Assembly (NCBI GenBank): GCA_021741065.1
Contig: JAIOYN010000001.1
Coordinates: 1-64,000, forward strand
Direction: 5' to 3'
Length of the DNA: 64,000 bases
From: Sphingomonadaceae bacterium
Lineage (GTDB): Bacteria; Pseudomonadota; Alphaproteobacteria; Sphingomonadales; Sphingomonadaceae
Translations under genes and position numbers: made by a program
Part shown: positions 1,569 to 46,213 of the stretch, piece after piece
Layout: each line of letters starts with the position of its first letter
Numbering within the stretch: position 1 is the first letter of the stretch
Notes under the pieces: generated by a model
What the model saw: only the letters and a program-made list of their open reading frames with translations
Told to the model about the DNA's origin: nothing
Database searches by the model: none

Positions 1569-3311
1569 ATGCATGATCTGGTTATTCGTGGCGGAACCAT
1601 CGTTGATGGCACGGGTACAGCGCGCTTTGTGGCCGATGTAGCGATCGATGGCGGCCTAATTACTGCCGTTGGCCAAATCAGTGCAGCAGGCCGCGAAGAA
1701 ATCGATGCGACTGGTAAGGTCGTCGCGCCCGGATTTGTCGACATTCACACCCATTATGATGGCCAAGCTACCTGGGACAGCGAAATGGCGCCATCCAGTT
1801 GGCATGGTGTCACCACTGTCGTCATGGGCAATTGTGGCGTGGGCTTTGCGCCGGCGCGCAAGGAGAAGCATGAATGGCTGATCGGCTTGATGGAGGGGGT
1901 AGAGGACATTCCTGGTACGGCTCTGGCCGAAGGTATGAAGTGGGATTGGGAGAGCTTTCCCGATTATTTGGATGCACTGGAGCGCTTGCCGCGCACAGTG
2001 GATATCGGCACGCATGTTCCGCATGGCGCGTTACGTGCGTATGTGATGGGTGAGCGCGGCGCCGATAATGAAGAGCCAACAGCAGCTGACATTGCCGAAA
2101 TGGGGCGGTTGGTTGAAGAAGGCGTGCGCGCAGGGGCGCTTGGCATTTCCACGTCGCGGACAGTTTTGCACAAGTCAATCGACGGTGAACTTGTGCCCGG
2201 CACGACAGCAACCGAACCGGAACTGCTGGCGCTCGGCCGAGCCATGGCGCGCGCCGGACATGGTGTGTTTGAATTGACATCTGATCTATTGCCCGAATGG
2301 GATGAATTCAGCTGGATGCAGCGGCTTTCGGCGGAAACGGGCCAGCCGATTGTTTTCACCATGCTGCAATCACCTATTAAACAGATGCACTGGGCGGACC
2401 AGATGTCGGCGATGCGGTCGGCAAATGATAATGGCGCAAATATTGTCGCGGCGATTGGGCTGCGGGGCATCGGCGTGATCATGAACTGGCGCGGCACAGT
2501 GCATCCATTTATGCGCAAACCAAGCTGGCAGGCGATAAAAGACCTTGGCTGGGATGCGCAAAAGGCGAAGTTGGCGGACCCTGCGTTTAAGGCGCAGTTG
2601 CTGGCAGAGGAAAATCTGCCACCACCGTCGCCCGATTTGGCGCCATTTTTCATGCTCGTGACTGCAGCATGGGCGATGCAATTCCCGTTGACGGACGATT
2701 TTAGCTATGAGCCCACGCGTGAAGAAAGCGTCTTCGGTTTTGCAAGTGCTGCGGCCAAAGATTCCGCTGAATTTGCGTATGACCAACTGATGTCAGATGA
2801 CGGCAATGGGATGATTTATCTGCCGATCCTCAATTACATGGACGGCAATCTGGAATTTACGAAGGAGCTGCTGGAGGCAGAGGATACGTTGGCGTCGCTG
2901 TCGGACGGCGGGGCGCATTGCGGCACTATTTGCGACGCCGCCGCGCCGACATTCCTACTGAGTTATTGGGCGCGCGACCGCAAAGCTGGAACGATTCCGC
3001 TTGAATTGGCGGTGAAACGGCAATGCCATGACACGGCGGCGCTATATGGGCTGAATGACCGTGGGCTCCTAAAGCCCGGTTATCTTGCCGATATCAACGT
3101 GATCGACTTTGACACGCTGAAACTACAAAAGCCGTGGTTAGCGGTTGACCTGCCCGCTGGCGGCAAGCGCTTGCTGCAAAAAGCCGTAGGCTATGTCGCG
3201 ACAATCAAGTCTGGTGTGGTTACGTTCCGCGACGGACACATGACAGGAACGCTGCCCGGCACTGTGATACGCGGTCCGCAAAGCGTGATGATGGCTGAGG
3301 CTGCCCAGTGA
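1569..3311 (+). CDS. N-acyl-D-amino-acid deacylase-like amidohydrolase
   Basis: A 580-residue metal-dependent amidohydrolase of the D-aminoacylase type. These enzymes remove acyl groups from N-acyl-D-amino acids or open related cyclic amides. Seen: an N-terminal urease-like beta domain ([14 protein letters not shown]), the metal-binding DIHTHYDGQ near residue 65, the [11 protein letters not shown] loop whose Cys bridges metals in D-aminoacylases, and [12 protein letters not shown] near residue 450 supplying the late Asp. The ATG at 1569 is preceded by a GAGGAG ribosome site 7 bases away, which rules out the upstream TTG at 1545. No signal peptide is visible, so it is probably cytoplasmic. Substrate is not decidable; sphingomonads carry several such paralogues. 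Confidence 0.85.
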
Positions 3312-3456
3312 GGGGAACTTAAAATCAAAACCCCGAGGTAAGCTGTGTTCTGCACGCTTTAGGCTAAGGGGCACGATAAGTGGATGGTTGTATGCCCCGC
3401 CGTGTCCTGATTCTGAGCTTGTTTCCGCATCACAGATTTCGAAGGTTACTCCGAAA

Positions 3457-4572
3457 TCAAACCCGCATGGGCATCAAGACATACAGCGCCGGTGACTCGT
3501 CATTCTCACGGATCAACGTCGGTGCGCTGGCGTCGGCGAGGTGCAACTCAACCACGTCGCCTTCGATCTCGCCCAAAATATCCATCAAATAGCGGGCGTT
3601 AAAACCGATTTCGAAACCCTCGCTGCTATATTGGCCGGATACTTCTTCCGCAGCCGTGCCGTTTTCGGGGCTGGTGACCGACAAGGTAATCTTGCCCTGA
3701 TCCAGCGCCATTTTGACCGCACGGGTTTTTTCGGTGGCGATGGTCGCAACGCGGTCGACGCCTTGTGAAAATGCCTTAGGGTCAATACGCAGCAATTTGT
3801 CATTGGCGGTTGGAATGACACGGCTATAATCGGGGAAAGTGCCGTCGATAAGCTTTGACGTCAGGATGACGCTGTCAAAAGTGAAGCGTATTTTGCTCGC
3901 CGACAGGTCAATCTGTATAACATTGTCACCGCTTTCATCGAGCAGTTTGCGAATTTCCGCAACGCATTTGCGCGGCACGATGATATCGGGCATATTTTCC
4001 GCGCCAGCGGGGCGTGGCAAGGTCACGCGCGCCAAGCGGTGGCCATCCGTCGCTGCGGCCTTCAACACAGGCTCGGCATCGTCGGTGACGTGCAAGAAAA
4101 TGCCGTTGAGATAATAACGCGTTTCTTCGGTCGAAATCGCAAAGCGCGTTTTATCGATGATCTGGATCAACGAACTTGCAGGGATTTCAAACGATGTAGG
4201 CAAGTCACCTTCGGCAATTGTCGGGAAATCTTCACGTGGGAGTGTCGCCAGCGAGAAACGCGCGCGGCCTGCATTGACGGCCATGCGACCATCGGCGGCG
4301 TGCAGTTGTACTTGCGAACCATCGGGCAGCTTCCGGGCGATTTCGAACAATGTATGCGCGGAAACCGTTGTTGCGCCGGGAGTTTCGACATCAGCAGCAA
4401 AAGTTTCAACGACCTGCAAATCCAGGTCAGTCGCGGTCAGCTTGATCTTGCCACCCTCACTGGCTTCGATCAGCACGTTGGACAAGATCGGAATAGTGTT
4501 GCGCCGTTCCACCACGGACTGGACGTGGCTCAGGCTTTTCAGCAGCGTCGCGCGTTCGATCGTGGCTCTCAT
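3457..4572 (-). CDS. dnaN: DNA polymerase III sliding clamp, beta subunit
   Basis: The beta clamp (371 residues) encircles DNA as a dimer and tethers polymerase III and other replication or repair proteins. Three successive clamp domains are recognisable: the start MRATIERATLLKSLSHVQSVVERRNTIPILSNVL is typical, the middle has FEIPASSLIQIIDKTRFAIS and TDGHRLARV, and the C-terminus ends YVLMPMRV, the usual M-P-M-R-[LV] end that forms part of the protein-binding pocket. Length fits exactly. No dnaA or recF lies beside it, which is common in alphaproteobacteria where replication genes are scattered. It faces the amidohydrolase gene tail to tail across a 145-base gap with no clear terminator. Confidence 0.97.
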   Translation of the reverse strand: MRATIERATLLKSLSHVQSVVERRNTIPILSNVLIEASEGGKIKLTATDLDLQVVETFAADVETPGATTVSAHTLFEIARKLPDGSQVQLHAADGRMAVNAGRARFSLATLPREDFPTIAEGDLPTSFEIPASSLIQIIDKTRFAISTEETRYYLNGIFLHVTDDAEPVLKAAATDGHRLARVTLPRPAGAENMPDIIVPRKCVAEIRKLLDESGDNVIQIDLSASKIRFTFDSVILTSKLIDGTFPDYSRVIPTANDKLLRIDPKAFSQGVDRVATIATEKTRAVKMALDQGKITLSVTSPENGTAAEEVSGQYSSEGFEIGFNARYLMDILGEIEGDVVELHLADASAPTLIRENDESPALYVLMPMRV

Positions 4573-9742: not shown

Positions 9743-10612
9743 ATGGCACCAACGGACATAGATGGATTCGCAAGATGGGGCACGGATACACCATCTGTGC
9801 CTGTCCTGTTGTCCGTGCCGCATGCCGGGCGGGATTATCCATCGGGACTGTTCGATGCATTGAGGCTACCGCCTGCTGTTCTAATGCGGCTTGAGGACAG
9901 ATATACTGACATGTTGACGCGGCGCTGTGTCGAGTTGGGATATCCTGTCATTATGGCGCACCGTGCGCGGGCGTGGATTGATTTGAACCGCGACGAGCAG
10001 GACATTGATGCAGAAATGGTGCAAGGGGCGCTGCGAAGCGATTATCCCGCGCCAGGGGTCAAACAACGCGGCGGTCTTGGCCTGATTCCCCGAAGATTAT
10101 CAGGCGAGGGGGAATTGTGGAAACGGCAATTTACCTTGAGTGAGGTGGAGCATCGCATATTGTCGTTCCACCGACCCTATCATGCAGCAGTTGCAGATGT
10201 GCTTGAAAAGATGCGACGGCGGTTTGGCGTTGCTATATTGCTTGACCTACACAGCATGCCGCCGATTCGTGGCGGATCTTCTTTGCCAGTGCCGCAATTT
10301 GTCATTGGTGACCGTTTCGGCAAAAGTGCAGCGTCGCAATATGCCGAGTTGTTAATGGCGCGGTTGCGAGCCCAAGGGTTTAACGCTGCGTTGAACTATC
10401 CTTATGCTGGCGCCTATATACTTCGCCGCCATGCACGGCCACGGGCGAACATCCACGCCATTCAGTTGGAAGTCGATCGATCACTGTATCTCGATTCCGA
10501 TTTGCGCTATCCTAGTGTTGGTTTTGACCGCATAAACGCGATGATTTCTAATCTAGTTTCGGCGCTTGTCGACGAAGCTTTGGGCTCCGCTACCTTGATT
10601 GCCGCGGAATGA
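9743..10612 (+). CDS. N-formylglutamate amidohydrolase family protein
   Basis: A 289-residue member of the N-formylglutamate amidohydrolase (HutG/FGase) family, which hydrolyses N-formylglutamate or related N-acyl amino acids such as those released in histidine breakdown. Seen: LLSVPHAGRDYPSGLF at the N-terminus with the first metal His, DRYTDMLTRR, the ARAWIDLNRDEQDID block, LLDLHSMPP around residue 170 and a C-terminal HAIQLEVDRSLYLD. The ATG is preceded by AAAGGGAAAC, a reasonable ribosome site. No hut genes lie nearby, so involvement in histidine degradation is not supported by context. Confidence 0.88.
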   Translation: MAPTDIDGFARWGTDTPSVPVLLSVPHAGRDYPSGLFDALRLPPAVLMRLEDRYTDMLTRRCVELGYPVIMAHRARAWIDLNRDEQDIDAEMVQGALRSDYPAPGVKQRGGLGLIPRRLSGEGELWKRQFTLSEVEHRILSFHRPYHAAVADVLEKMRRRFGVAILLDLHSMPPIRGGSSLPVPQFVIGDRFGKSAASQYAELLMARLRAQGFNAALNYPYAGAYILRRHARPRANIHAIQLEVDRSLYLDSDLRYPSVGFDRINAMISNLVSALVDEALGSATLIAAE

Positions 10613-10616
10613 TCGT

Positions 10617-10647
10617 AAAAAAACCACCCCGGAGGTTTCCGGGGTGG
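10617..10647 (-). terminator. Intrinsic terminator of the structured RNA / sapC transcript
   Basis: On the minus strand a 9-bp GC-rich stem (CCACCCCGG with CCGGGGTGG, loop of six) is followed directly by seven U, a textbook rho-independent terminator. It is oriented to end transcription coming from sapC and the structured RNA, not from the plus-strand amidohydrolase gene. Confidence 0.9.
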
Positions 10648-10905
10648 CCTAGGTTCAGGGAGTTGATGCCCTCACAGGCATCGGTGGACGGAAACGGGAG
10701 GGGTTGATTCCGTCCATGCCCAAGAATGGGGTTCTGGCATTACGGTTTCAAGACTCACGTCGAAAACAAGTGCAGTTTGCGGACCAACCGCCCGATGGTT
10801 GCGAGGAATGGTGCATCACCCGCTAAGGGATGACGACCATCAGACTTTAGACGCATAGAGCAACTAGCCCAGGCCGTCACTTCCCCCAAATATGCGGCGT
10901 GACGG
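10640..10905 (-). ncRNA. Structured non-coding RNA of unknown family, 3' of sapC
   Basis: Between the sapC stop and the terminator lies about 260 bases with no plausible reading frame but dense pairing on the minus strand. In order: a 7-bp hairpin CCGTCAC/GTGACGG; an 8-bp closing helix joining GGCCTGGG (10868-10875) to CCTAGGCC (10646-10653); an extended hairpin with ATGGT/ACCAT outside TCATCC/GGGTGA; an outer GTTGC/GCAAC pairing; a hairpin ATGCC..GGGCAT with inner AGAA/TTCT; GGACGGAA/TTCCGTCC; GATGCC/GGCATC; then the terminator. A global closing helix followed by a terminator indicates a discrete stable RNA. I could not match it to tmRNA (no tag or acceptor end), RNase P or SRP RNA (no core motifs). 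6S RNA is not excluded. It could be transcribed alone or processed from sapC mRNA. Confidence 0.7.
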
Positions 10906-10924
10906 CATGAAGCATTCGTTTGGT

Positions 10925-11704
10925 TTAATTCGACGGGAGTTCCGTCACTTGCGGCACCTTACCTTGTGCGACTTGAACGGCAAAGATTTCGCGCATTAAC
11001 TGCAAAGAGAATAAATGTGCATGGATCAGCGCAAGAATACCGTTTTGGTTCAACTTGCGCACGGTGTCACCGCGAAGCTCGCGCAATTTATTTTCATCGA
11101 CCATCTTAAAGCCACGATAGATGAAGGGCTGCTCTTGACCTTCTTGTTGAATGGACACTTCGCCATCCATGAGAAGGTCGAGCTTCTGGATTTCCTCAAC
11201 AAAGGCGTGCGTTTGCGCGCCAGCATTTTCAAAGTCTTCGCAGAACTTCAAAATCGCCTTCGTGTTCTCGCTTGGTTGGCCGTCTTCAAACAAAGGCAGG
11301 CCTTCTTCAAATTCGCCAACAGCACCTGACGTTGGATCAAAGCACAACGACAGTTCGTCGGTGTCCGGACGCAGTTTTGCCAGCAGGAAAGGATAGCGGC
11401 GGACATATGCAGGGATGTAAACGGGGCGTTCAAAATGCCCTTCGTCATTCATGAAAGTGTTCACGCCTTCATTCATGCCCATCAAAACGAGCGGCACGGG
11501 GTTTTCCGATGCGGAGAAGATGATTGGATAGGTACGCGACGCCGGCACAAATTCTTCAATCGTCAACGGAATGGCATGTTGGCCCTCAAGGAATTTAGCA
11601 TTTTCGAGCATGCGTGACTTCCACGTCACATGATCGTTGCTGCTCAATGGCACAAGGTCGTTGTACAAAAGCGGGAGGTTGGCGGCTTGGGGCGCGGTGG
11701 CCAT
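10925..11704 (-). CDS. SapC family protein
   Basis: A 259-residue soluble protein of the SapC family (named after a Campylobacter S-layer locus; biochemical function unknown). Typical features: an early LYNDLVPLSSNDHVTWK block, PIIFSASENPVPLVLMGMNEGVNTFM and RPVYIPAYVRRYPFLLA near residue 100, and the later HAFVEEIQKLDLL. In sphingomonads and caulobacters such genes often accompany TonB receptors and cupin-like or tryptophan-halogenase genes; here it has none of these beside it. Start chosen at the ATG for MATAPQ because a GGAG lies six bases upstream; the in-frame ATG 12 bases earlier contains that site. A structured RNA and terminator follow the stop. Confidence 0.9.
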   Translation of the reverse strand: MATAPQAANLPLLYNDLVPLSSNDHVTWKSRMLENAKFLEGQHAIPLTIEEFVPASRTYPIIFSASENPVPLVLMGMNEGVNTFMNDEGHFERPVYIPAYVRRYPFLLAKLRPDTDELSLCFDPTSGAVGEFEEGLPLFEDGQPSENTKAILKFCEDFENAGAQTHAFVEEIQKLDLLMDGEVSIQQEGQEQPFIYRGFKMVDENKLRELRGDTVRKLNQNGILALIHAHLFSLQLMREIFAVQVAQGKVPQVTELPSN

Positions 11705-43205: not shown

Positions 43206-44038
43206 GGCCTATCCTTGCCGAAGGACGCGCGGGTTTTCTTTAGTATCGCCGACACTTTGATAATGGTCGGACCGCCGCAGAATAACAGCCTGTCCGGGAA
43301 TTCTATTATGCGTGTGCGGTCCCCCAAATACGCCAGCAGCCTTTGCCGCGCGCTGATGTCGCGGGCATTCGAACCGGGCTTCTGCGTGGGCATGAAGATC
43401 ACCACTGGCGGGTTGCGCATCAGGGTCTCTAACGGCAGCACCCCCCATGAGGATAGTCCATATTGTGCGCTGGCGTTGCGAAAGCCGTGGCGTGCCAGCA
43501 ATTCGTCCTGCAACGTGCCTTTACCCGCCACAAATCCACCATTTTGCCAGATAATGGCCGACACAAATGGGCCTGAAAATTGGGTGCTGGGTAAAGATTC
43601 CTGAATGTGGGAAATCAGGGCTTCTCCGGCATCTGTCCTGTCGAGTACGGCCGCGATTGTCCGGATCTGCTGCATGTCTTCGGCGATGGTCGGCGCGACC
43701 CCCAATGCCACGGTTTTAATGCCCGCCCGCGCAAGAACCGCGTTGGTGCCTCCACTGGCAAGATTTCCCGTCAGCACCATCTTGGGCCGCGCCAACAATA
43801 CTTCCTCTGCGCTGATGCCAATGGCGGGCAATTGCCGCGCCCATGTCAAAGGGGCAGATGCGCTATTGGGGTCGTGCGAATATATACTCACCGCCGTGAC
43901 TTGGCCGGGCAATGCTATTTCGGCGAGCACTGCATCAATGCAAGGATTGTTCGACACGACGCCATGCGGTGCAATGGCGGGCTGGCTGGCGCATCCCGCC
44001 AAGGCAAAAGCCGCAAGGAGGCACACGCCAAAGCGCAT
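43202..44038 (-). CDS. btuF: Cobalamin-binding periplasmic lipoprotein
   Basis: A 278-residue substrate-binding protein of the FecB/BtuF cluster. It begins with a lipoprotein signal (LLAAFALAGC, Cys16), so it is membrane-anchored in the periplasm rather than free. Typical marks are SNNPCIDAVLAEI, LPAIGISAEEVLLARPKMVLTGNLASGG, IRTIAAVLDRTDAGEAL and the late FPDRLLFCGGPTIIKVSAIL. It would deliver cobamide from BtuB to BtuCD. The ATG shares bases with the btuB stop (TGATG); an adjacent in-frame TTG is a poorer start. Confidence 0.88.
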   Translation of the reverse strand: MRFGVCLLAAFALAGCASQPAIAPHGVVSNNPCIDAVLAEIALPGQVTAVSIYSHDPNSASAPLTWARQLPAIGISAEEVLLARPKMVLTGNLASGGTNAVLARAGIKTVALGVAPTIAEDMQQIRTIAAVLDRTDAGEALISHIQESLPSTQFSGPFVSAIIWQNGGFVAGKGTLQDELLARHGFRNASAQYGLSSWGVLPLETLMRNPPVVIFMPTQKPGSNARDISARQRLLAYLGDRTRIIEFPDRLLFCGGPTIIKVSAILKKTRASFGKDRP

Positions 44039-45885
44039 CAAAATTTGGCCCTTATGCCCATCGTCGCGTTCCGGCCAAAGCTGTTATAGCCTGCGACCAC
44101 CGTGTAATCTGCGTCGAGCAGATTATCGATGCGGCTATATATCTCCAGCGCATCGGTAAGTGGCATCGACGCCCGCAGCCCAACCAACGCATAGCCATCA
44201 AGCCGGACCGTGTTCGCGGCATCGTCGAAGCCATCGCCGATCCACAATAAGCTGCTTCCAACGGACAGGCCGAAAGGCGTCTTCCAATCGGCGGTCAGGC
44301 TGACACTATCTTGTGGGCGCAATGTTTGCCGTTTGCCGAAATTGGCGCCAGCCGTGCGGTTGATAGCGTCCACTAACGTATAGCTTGCTTCTAGGCTCAG
44401 ATTGTCGATGGGGGTTAGGTTCACACCCGCCTCAAGTCCCTTTGACGTCACCTTATCGATGTTTTCCGACTGGAAGGTGACGGAGGAATAAGCAATCAGG
44501 TCGTTGCTGCGGCGGTTGAAATAGGTCGCGAAAATTTGCGCCTTGCTGCCCAGAAATTGATGTTCAACGCCGAGATCGAAATTGCGCGCGGTTTCGGGCT
44601 TGAGATCAAGATTGCCATAAGGCGGTTGCCCTTCTGTCAAGGTGGGGGCGCGAAACCCTTCGCCATAAGTTACGCGGAACGTCGTCTGCCCATCATTAGG
44701 CGAAAAAGCCGCGTTGCCGCCAACGGTCGTTTGCCCGCCATAATCATCATAGACATCATGCCGCACACCGGCGGTTACAGTGAGGCCGGAGACGGGACGC
44801 AATATCATTTGGCCAAAACCGCTGCCCAGATCGTTGCGGGCGATATCGGGGGCTGCCCCCTCAAACGATGTGCTGGCAAAGCTGCGTTCATATTCTGCGC
44901 CAGCCACCAAAGTCAGCGCATCGTTCAGGTCAAACGCCGCATGATATTCGGCGCGGTCAATTGCACCGCGCACGTTGAAATTGTTGAAACTGAACGCCAC
45001 AGGATCCGTACCAACCCGCTTTATGTCGGTGCGGGTATAAGCGATCCTGTTTTGTAGGCGACCGTCGAGCAGCTCGAAATTTGCGCCGACATAGCCGACA
45101 AATTGCCGGTTGCGCGAAACGGGTAAGGCGTTCGCGCCGACACCAAAGGCTGAGTCATATTCGACTGTGGCGCGGTTGTAATAGCTGCGGAAATCAAAGC
45201 GCACGTTGTCGCTGAGATTGACCTTCAACCGCGCATTGCCCGTTAGATTGTCATAACCATCGCGTTCGGTCCCACCTGCCAGCGCGGAAATGCCGTCGCT
45301 GTTGACGAAAGAACCGCCGACGCTGCCTTCCAATACGCCACCGCTACCCGCAAGATTGGCGTTTAGCCTCTTGGTATCATAGGCCCCATATTCCGCGCCC
45401 ATGCGGCCTTCAAAACCGTTTACTGGCGCGATGGATTGGACATTCACGACGCCGCCAATGGCTTGGCTGCCCCAGATGACCGAGTTTGGCCCGCGCAAGA
45501 TTTCGACGCGGCCAATATTGCCCGTCATCAATGCACCAAAATCGAACGCCCCATTGGGGCTGGACAGGTCGTTAATCCGGACGCCGTCGATGAGAACCAA
45601 TGTCTGCGCGCTGCTACCGCCGCGGATGAAGGCGCTGCTTTGCCCGCCAAGGCCGCCGCGCGTCGCGATGCTGACGCCCGGCACGGTTTGCAGCGCCTCG
45701 GCTATGGTTGCGCTTTGTAATTGGTCAAGCCGGTCGCGATCGACAATGTCGATGGCTTGTCCTGTTTCAGAGCGCGGTTGGGCAAAGCCGCTGGCGGTGA
45801 CGACAATTTCATCCTCTGCCGTTTGCGCAAAGGCCGCGAAAGGCAGCATCGCAAGCGCGGCTGCCGTCGTTTTTAAAAGGGTCAT
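44038..45885 (-). CDS. btuB: TonB-dependent vitamin B12 receptor
   Basis: A 615-residue outer-membrane receptor of the BtuB type. Signal peptide TAAALAMLPFAAFAQ is followed by a TonB box EDEIVVTASG, the plug domain (IDIVDRDRLDQLQSATIAEALQTVPGVSI, SAFIRGGSSAQTLVLIDGVRINDL, RVEILRGPNSVIWGSQAIGGVVNVQS) and a 22-strand-like barrel ending NATMGIRAKF with C-terminal Phe. Length and the short plug are typical of BtuB, smaller than the other TonB receptors here. The mRNA leader contains a cobalamin riboswitch and hairpins over the AAGGAG ribosome site eight bases before the ATG. Confidence 0.93.
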   Translation of the reverse strand: MTLLKTTAAALAMLPFAAFAQTAEDEIVVTASGFAQPRSETGQAIDIVDRDRLDQLQSATIAEALQTVPGVSIATRGGLGGQSSAFIRGGSSAQTLVLIDGVRINDLSSPNGAFDFGALMTGNIGRVEILRGPNSVIWGSQAIGGVVNVQSIAPVNGFEGRMGAEYGAYDTKRLNANLAGSGGVLEGSVGGSFVNSDGISALAGGTERDGYDNLTGNARLKVNLSDNVRFDFRSYYNRATVEYDSAFGVGANALPVSRNRQFVGYVGANFELLDGRLQNRIAYTRTDIKRVGTDPVAFSFNNFNVRGAIDRAEYHAAFDLNDALTLVAGAEYERSFASTSFEGAAPDIARNDLGSGFGQMILRPVSGLTVTAGVRHDVYDDYGGQTTVGGNAAFSPNDGQTTFRVTYGEGFRAPTLTEGQPPYGNLDLKPETARNFDLGVEHQFLGSKAQIFATYFNRRSNDLIAYSSVTFQSENIDKVTSKGLEAGVNLTPIDNLSLEASYTLVDAINRTAGANFGKRQTLRPQDSVSLTADWKTPFGLSVGSSLLWIGDGFDDAANTVRLDGYALVGLRASMPLTDALEIYSRIDNLLDADYTVVAGYNSFGRNATMGIRAKF

Positions 45886-45926: not shown

Positions 45927-45981
45927 CGCGGAGGCAAACCCCGATTGCGCCAGTGTCCCGCAAGCACAAAGGACAAACCGC

Positions 45982-46165
45982 AATCAGGCAGGTCTCCTGG
46001 CTTCCGGGTCAATGCGCTTGCTCCGCCTTCCCAGTTTCACGGTCACCCGTTTTTCCAGTGGCATATGGAGCAAAAGCTCGCCGGTTACAGTTGCGGGAAC
46101 AGCGCCGGATTTCCGCCGGCTTCCCTATTATCCACGCTCTCGCGCAGACCTGGTGCGTGATGCGG
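45982..46165 (-). promoter_or_regulatory. Cobalamin riboswitch
   Basis: The minus strand carries the consensus of the B12 aptamer in order: AATAGGGAAGCCGG, GAAATCCGGCGCTG, the B12-box-like CCCGCAACTGTAACCGG (about 46081-46100) and the closing GCCAGGAGACCTGCC (about 45987-46001). All core blocks are present with normal spacing, so it should bind adenosyl- or another cobalamin and repress the btuB-F-C-D-phoD operon when B12 is abundant. It lies about 100 bases upstream of btuB. Exact ends are approximate. Confidence 0.95.
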
Positions 46166-46213
46166 GGTTAGGCGGGTTTTGGTTCGAGAGCAAGGGGCGG
46201 CGCGATTGCGCCC

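Follow-up and report, generated by a model that had tools for sequence, protein, structure and literature searches.

A probable sphingomonad orthologue of the alpha-r8 small RNAs beside an N-formylglutamate amidohydrolase gene

The alpha-R8 small RNAs (sRNAs) are described as occurring in all Alphaproteobacteria except the Rickettsiales, most species having one copy beside the gene for N-formylglutamate amidohydrolase (FGase), and the traits given for them are an intrinsic terminator together with a UUUCCUCCCU motif in single-stranded form (Vogt et al. 2025, PMC12559287). In the same account, SisA of Caulobacter crescentus represses mRNAs through UUUCCUCCCU and is countered by the sponge CrfA, with Hfq. 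MmgR of Sinorhizobium meliloti belongs to Rfam family RF00519, of which the RNA treated here is most likely a member too; it has been described (PMC7143759) as Hfq-dependent, 77 nt long and having three stem-loops and an anti-Shine-Dalgarno motif. From a sphingomonad, SuhB of Sphingopyxis granuli TFA has been presented as a 61-nt, Hfq-dependent repressor of thnR (PMC6563040).

Here we analyse a window of 64,000 nucleotides, the whole stretch of DNA from a Sphingomonadaceae bacterium, in which an earlier note had placed a large structured RNA directly downstream of a sapC gene. We read the RNA gene in the window as the sphingomonad orthologue of the alpha-r8 sRNA, with its own promoter, a length of ~100 nt and an intrinsic terminator. 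Judged by sequence comparison, we would put the probability of this at roughly 0.85. The features of the locus are as follows.

9743 to 10612, plus strand: FGase gene, convergent to the sRNA (PF05013, 217.9 bits)
10617 to 10716, minus strand: probable alpha-r8 (MmgR/SisA-type) sRNA, ~100 nt, with the 5' end placed from the -10 box and the 3' end from the T run
10617 to 10650, minus strand: predicted intrinsic terminator, 13-bp hairpin and T run
10651 to 10664, minus strand: linker AACUCCCUGAACCU, the anti-Shine-Dalgarno-like core of the alpha-r8 family
10665 to 10682, minus strand: predicted stem-loop 2, 7 bp
10685 to 10716, minus strand: predicted stem-loop 1, 9 bp, with the C-rich loop UCAACCCCUCCCGU at 10707-10694
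10722 to 10728, minus strand: putative -10 box CATTCT(T), spacer 17 or 18 by register in the window copy
10746 to 10751, minus strand: putative -35 box TTGAAA
10925 to 11716, minus strand: sapC gene, the upstream neighbour in sphingomonads (PF07277, 229.7 bits)

Rfam matches and likeness to described RNAs

The FGase gene ends at 10612 and the T run of the sRNA at 10617, such that the two are adjacent in the window. An Rfam covariance search, which the earlier note had proposed, returned no family at gathering level for the region; its best match was RF00519, the family named suhB (10609-10686, minus strand, 30.7 bits, E 1.4e-4, or 1.5e-4 genome-wide), under the gathering score of 41 bits. The same holds for sphingomonad copies in general, with none of the 19 scanned (the window copy, 10 loci and a further 8 loci) reaching the RF00519 cut-off. 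The earlier note had also failed to assign the RNA to tmRNA, RNase P or SRP RNA, and we agree, there being no gathering-level match to any of these in the window.

At gathering thresholds, only a tRNA and a cobalamin riboswitch were found in the window. The riboswitch (45970-46168, minus strand, 117 bits) lies upstream of ORFs that by inspection resemble a TonB receptor (44038-45885, minus strand), a substrate-binding protein and a permease, which together look like ordinary vitamin B12 uptake.

SisA, the Caulobacter crescentus member of RF00519, has in common with the window RNA the FGase linkage, the intrinsic terminator and a CUCCCU core after a hairpin. The two differ in the core, which is AACUCCCUGAACC in the window instead of UUUCCUCCCU, in the sequence of stem-loop 2 and in the score of the window RNA, which lies under the Rfam cut-off. 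The window copy agrees with the 10-nt family core UUUCCUCCCU at 7 of 10 positions. Among the 93 distinct sphingomonad sequences introduced below, 55 agree at 8-10 of 10 positions (10 in 2, 9 in 20, 8 in 33), with 7 in 36, including the window, and 6 in 2. The window RNA fits alpha-r8 by synteny, terminator, a shortened core and homology, falls short of the Rfam score, and has the 10-mer in part.

Among the alternatives, we consider an AbcR1/AbcR2 (alpha-r15)-type RNA improbable. The general layout and size are as described for AbcR1/2 (PMC7143759), and these RNAs, like the window RNA, have three stem-loops and two CU-rich unpaired segments. However, the genomic neighbours differ: synteny with FGase is the linkage described for alpha-R8 (PMC12559287), while in S. 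meliloti the genes flanking AbcR1/2 are SMc01226 and lsrB (PMC7143759). In addition, the best Rfam match was RF00519, in a scan that reduced overlapping clan matches to the best family.

Extent and structure of the sRNA gene

A protein search with SapC yielded 80 loci (L032-L111), of which 65 have a C-rich core with a T run after it. When the window and the 29 loci recruited through the RNA itself (L003-L031) are counted too, this core and T-run pattern is present in 95 of 110 loci, 93 of them distinct. In the common layout that emerges from the 93 distinct sequences, the RNA has a -35/-10 promoter of its own and consists of two hairpins, a CUCCCUGAACC linker and, at the end, an intrinsic terminator. 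On this comparative basis, the minus-strand stretch is a real, discrete and conserved sRNA gene of ~100 nt. R1, a covariance model that we built from 22 sphingomonad copies, matches it at 10618-10727 with 77 bits, and at E up to 1 the rest of its genome (an assembly that is 84% complete) gives no other match.

Transcription is most likely from the predicted own sigma-70-like promoter. When scored against TTGAAA/TATCTT with a spacer of 16-18, 91 of the 93 distinct upstream regions reach at least 8 of 12, whereas 50 composition shuffles average 6.9 and peak at 11 of 93; the consensus was derived from the same 93 sequences, which are themselves mutually related. The boxes at 10751-10746 and 10728-10722 would put the start near 10716. 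The sRNA promoter is visible only through comparison of relatives. A simple consensus scan listed neither this promoter nor its terminator, and it gave fewer promoter-like sites than its own shuffles (1 versus a mean of 2.0).

The earlier note had described something larger, a structured RNA of ~260 nt closed by a helix of 10868-10875 with 10646-10653, either separately promoted or derived from the 3'UTR of sapC as a regulator. The separately promoted non-coding RNA survives our analysis, but the 260-nt extent does not, the gene being one of ~100 nt (10716-10617). That the minus strand folds beyond chance is confirmed, both for 10612-10925 (z -4.10 against dinucleotide shuffles) and for 10650-10905, with the terminator left out (z -3.25), and the better-than-shuffled folding of the long sequence is one point in favour of the 260-nt form. 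Another is that sapC reads towards the RNA with no gene between the two in the window. However, although 8 pairs are possible on paper for the closing helix, the MFE and centroid folds both lack it and place its 3' arm in or beside the terminator stem. Nor is it maintained by compensation in five near relatives, which keep 7, 5, 7, 5 and 5 of the 8 pairs while the terminator-side arm never changes. The conserved promoter-like element also lies inside the proposed RNA.

In the five near relatives, which were chosen for a similar sapC-FGase distance, identity to the window is 0.36-0.91 over 10905-10760 versus 0.77-0.96 over 10728-10617. With 10612-10925 (314 bases) as the blastn query, matches were obtained in 35 of 149 genomes of the family, the window's own included. 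Outside the window's genus they cover 44-73 bases only, near the 3' end (query 236-310 of 314), and the single other match within the genus spans query 172-310. A plasmid collection searched with the whole stretch gave no match. At one locus (L033), a cytochrome b561-like ORF (3293-3967; assigned by inspection) lies between sapC and the RNA, where the window has no such gene. Because of the lower 5' identity, the 3'-only blastn matches and this intervening ORF, it looks as though the 5' half of that 260-nt fold consists of spacer and promoter, outside the RNA. The ORF in L033 also speaks against a 3'UTR origin, as does the occurrence of the RNA at loci without sapC within 1.5 kb. Accordingly, we give very little credence to a 260-nt RNA or a 3'UTR-derived sapC regulator.

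Returning to the ~100-nt alpha-r8-type gene, compensatory changes in the sapC-downstream regions of Sphingomonadales, which the earlier note had suggested looking for, are strong on alignment A4, in which 50 sequences, including the 22 that built R1, were aligned to R1, so that it is model-fitted and leans towards the model. On A4, 94.6% of 1490 cells are in standard pairs, versus a shuffled mean of 71.7%. Both-side changes occur in 24 of 30 pairs, and 0 of 500 shuffles reach any of five measures. When the partners were slid by 1-3 columns as a control, 37.8-47.3% of cells were paired. By helix, both-side changes on the fitted A4 are found in 10 of 10 model pairs of helix 1 (stem-loop 1; 86.9% of cells paired), 7 of 7 pairs of helix 2 (stem-loop 2; 98.6%) and 7 of 13 pairs of helix 3, the terminator. 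The terminator hairpin with its T run, which the earlier note had called, is indeed present at 10650-10617, and 98.4% of helix 3 cells are paired across the 50 sequences.

On A1, an unfitted MAFFT alignment of 43 sequences, the compensatory changes extend to stem-loop 2 and the terminator only. There, RNAalifold predicted 19 pairs, 13 with both-side changes, and did not predict stem-loop 1, which is misaligned between clades in A1. The counts given above for stem-loop 1 pairs come from A4. As a counterweight to the leaning of A4, besides the slid and shuffled controls, sequences were folded singly, and all 93 form at least three hairpins. The CUCCCUGAA stretch is invariant in all 43 A1 sequences, partly by construction, A1 having been picked with a pattern of the core, and variants of the linker core do occur, e.g., in L202, L204 and L210. 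Over a 10-nt linker stretch, the mean unpaired probability exceeds 0.5 in 76 of 93 sequences, the stretch being partly paired in the folds of the other 17. In the fold of the window copy, the linker CCC pairs partly with GGG at 10721-10719, which is upstream of the proposed start. In the stem-loop 1 region, a CCC with a mean unpaired probability above 0.5 is found in 92 of 93 sequences.

Distribution and genomic neighbours

Of 246 genomes of the order, 193 have an R1 match at E up to 0.001 and 53 have none; in a class sample, 44 of 385 genomes have one at this threshold, four of them from the window's own family. Many of the R1 matches outside the own family are weak, at about 32-50 bits. R1 also detects the RNA in L075 and, truncated by the contig end, in L043. 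A further search covered 15 genomes that had lacked the RNA either at sapC or in the order sample. Nine of these have the RNA elsewhere or on another contig, with FGase adjoining it in eight of the nine. The remaining six gave no R1 match at E up to 0.1; two (G068 and G273) belong to the window's own genus, and four (the genomes of L061, L065, L066 and L073) are labelled Sphingorhabdus or Sphingomonadaceae. At L073 there is just a short sapC-FGase gap with a terminator. Since 6 of 15 and 53 of 246 genomes are without an R1 match, the RNA can be lost or diverge past the reach of R1. The genome of L061 also has a different locus (L126), with CCTCCCTTAAGAC and a terminator, which is perhaps a strongly diverged copy.

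The FGase gene lies within 1.5 kb of the RNA in 30 of the 30 top own-family copies and 6 of 7 weaker ones, in 10 of 13 R1 copies picked from other families of the order, in 16 of 26 from the rest of the class, and, for the best RF00519 matches, at 24 of 30 loci, with four genomes shared between these and the R1 class loci. It is convergent to the RNA at every locus that has it; it is absent beside 10 of the 26 class R1 copies and 6 of the 30 RF00519 loci. A sapC gene is within 1.5 kb of 24 of the 30 top and 5 of the 7 weaker own-family copies. Outside the own family, none was found within 1.5 kb in the order (0/13), the class (0/26) or the RF00519 loci (0/30). Because of these high FGase counts and the zero counts for sapC outside the family, FGase is probably the ancestral neighbour of the RNA, as far as synteny can tell, with sapC a neighbour in sphingomonads only. 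In five of the six genomes that L067-L072 come from (Blastomonas or Sphingomonas by label), the RNA is beside FGase and away from sapC.

These five genomes, together with the FGase-linked copies of other families that have no sapC within 1.5 kb, make it unlikely that the RNA is a sapC 3'UTR product or is tied to SapC function. The earlier note had raised both ideas.

It could also be proposed that sphingomonads have an independent sRNA family, which arrived at a C-rich seed and terminator design by convergence and stands beside FGase by chance. The score below the Rfam cut-off would agree with this, as would a stem-loop 2 and linker unlike those of other class copies. However, 26 of the 39 R1 copies examined from beyond the own family and 24 of 30 RF00519 loci have FGase nearby, always convergent, which chance explains poorly. 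The similarity also runs in both directions. RF00519 matches the window RNA, and R1 matches cut-off-level RF00519 genes in other families, retrieving RF00519 members there with E down to 4.6e-8 (class sample). Among R1 loci in other families, RF00519 is present at cut-off level in 11 of 14 scanned (out of 26 fetched) from the class sample and in 10 of 12 scanned (out of 13 picked and fetched) from other families of the order. By inspection, copies in L192-L201 partly bridge the sphingomonad and alpha-r8 types. We therefore hold separate origin to be highly improbable and keep to the alpha-r8 assignment.

A 6S RNA, which the earlier note had not excluded and with which the size class and hairpins would agree, can be dismissed, with no RF00013 match at E up to 10 in 10560-10960 and a 6S candidate of full model length elsewhere in the genome (L001, G000:C65:3161-3331, minus strand; 43.4 bits, E 1.4e-7, cut-off 46.4).

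A second sRNA type and the possible mode of action

Sphingomonads have a second, dispersed sRNA type that matches RF00519, in which GCCTTTCAGGC is followed by CCTCTCC and a terminator (L112-L116, L117, L118-L123, L130 and L131). The copy in the window's own genome (L117, G000:C107:21812-21886) scores 39.8 bits on RF00519, and one in Sphingopyxis indica scores 54.9 bits; that species has a cut-off-level locus (L113) with no FGase within 1.5 kb. In all, three copies at cut-off level were found, in two of nine genomes. None of the 14 second-type loci has FGase within 1.5 kb, and R1 gave no match in the three that were searched (L112, L113 and L117). Several second-type copies share an upstream sequence, roughly TTCGCACTTGCACAAAA. 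Sphingopyxis indica carries both types, and RF00519 did not retrieve its FGase-linked R1 copy (L249) at E up to 0.1.

By RF00519 score, then, the FGase-linked RNA is more distant than the second type, which counts against a simple reading of the scores. Our reading is that the FGase-linked RNA would be the positional orthologue and the second type a set of dispersed paralogues, by analogy with SisA versus SisB-D in Caulobacter, a pattern described in PMC12559287. SuhB of Sphingopyxis granuli TFA goes by the same Rfam name and has a design similar to that of the window RNA. Because Sphingopyxis indica has both types (L113 and L249), TFA SuhB is probably a gene distinct from the window RNA and one of the second type.

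The genome encodes Hfq (62.9 bits), and by sequence comparison the RNA has one copy in its own genome and two C-rich segments that are mostly predicted open. By analogy with MmgR and SisA, the RNA would bind Hfq and act in trans. The CUCCCUGAACC stretch, possibly joined by the loop of stem-loop 1, would pair with the ribosome-binding sites of mRNAs for metabolism and transport. Such pairing would lower translation of the targets and tune carbon and storage metabolism to the nutrient state, and the action of the RNA would not run through sapC. A search of the own genome for the seed complement plus ATG found two sites, one of them the antisense strand of the RNA itself, and the reversed control found one. 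Because the result matches the reversed control, no target is supported by this search. For the gene at the other site, an initial stretch of 128 aa has no Pfam match at E up to 0.001. A literature search on an FGase-linked sRNA in sphingomonads found nothing relevant among the papers it returned.

A more tentative proposal, to which we lean against giving even odds, is that the RNA is a two-seed regulator in Sphingomonadaceae, the C-rich loop of stem-loop 1 being a second conserved anti-Shine-Dalgarno seed besides CUCCCUGAACC, with SuhB as a dispersed paralogue and the tasks split between them. A second seed is possible because the stem-loop 1 region has a CCC predicted open in 92 of 93 copies. 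In contrast, among 57 copies from elsewhere in the class and order, rough folds placed a CCC in a loop ahead of the core in 9 (8 more loci were without the pattern).

Most likely, the window RNA is a diverged representative of a family that is already known and is nothing unusual of its kind; its value is in annotation. Boundaries, a promoter and a structure can now be given for an sRNA whose score stayed under the Rfam threshold in each of the 19 sphingomonad copies scanned, and the alignment could serve to extend RF00519. As a probable alpha-r8 orthologue without sapC-linked novelty, the RNA should not be read as part of SapC biology. We suggest that sphingomonad annotation uses suhB as a name for dispersed paralogues, such that results obtained with Sphingopyxis SuhB may not transfer to the FGase-linked RNA.
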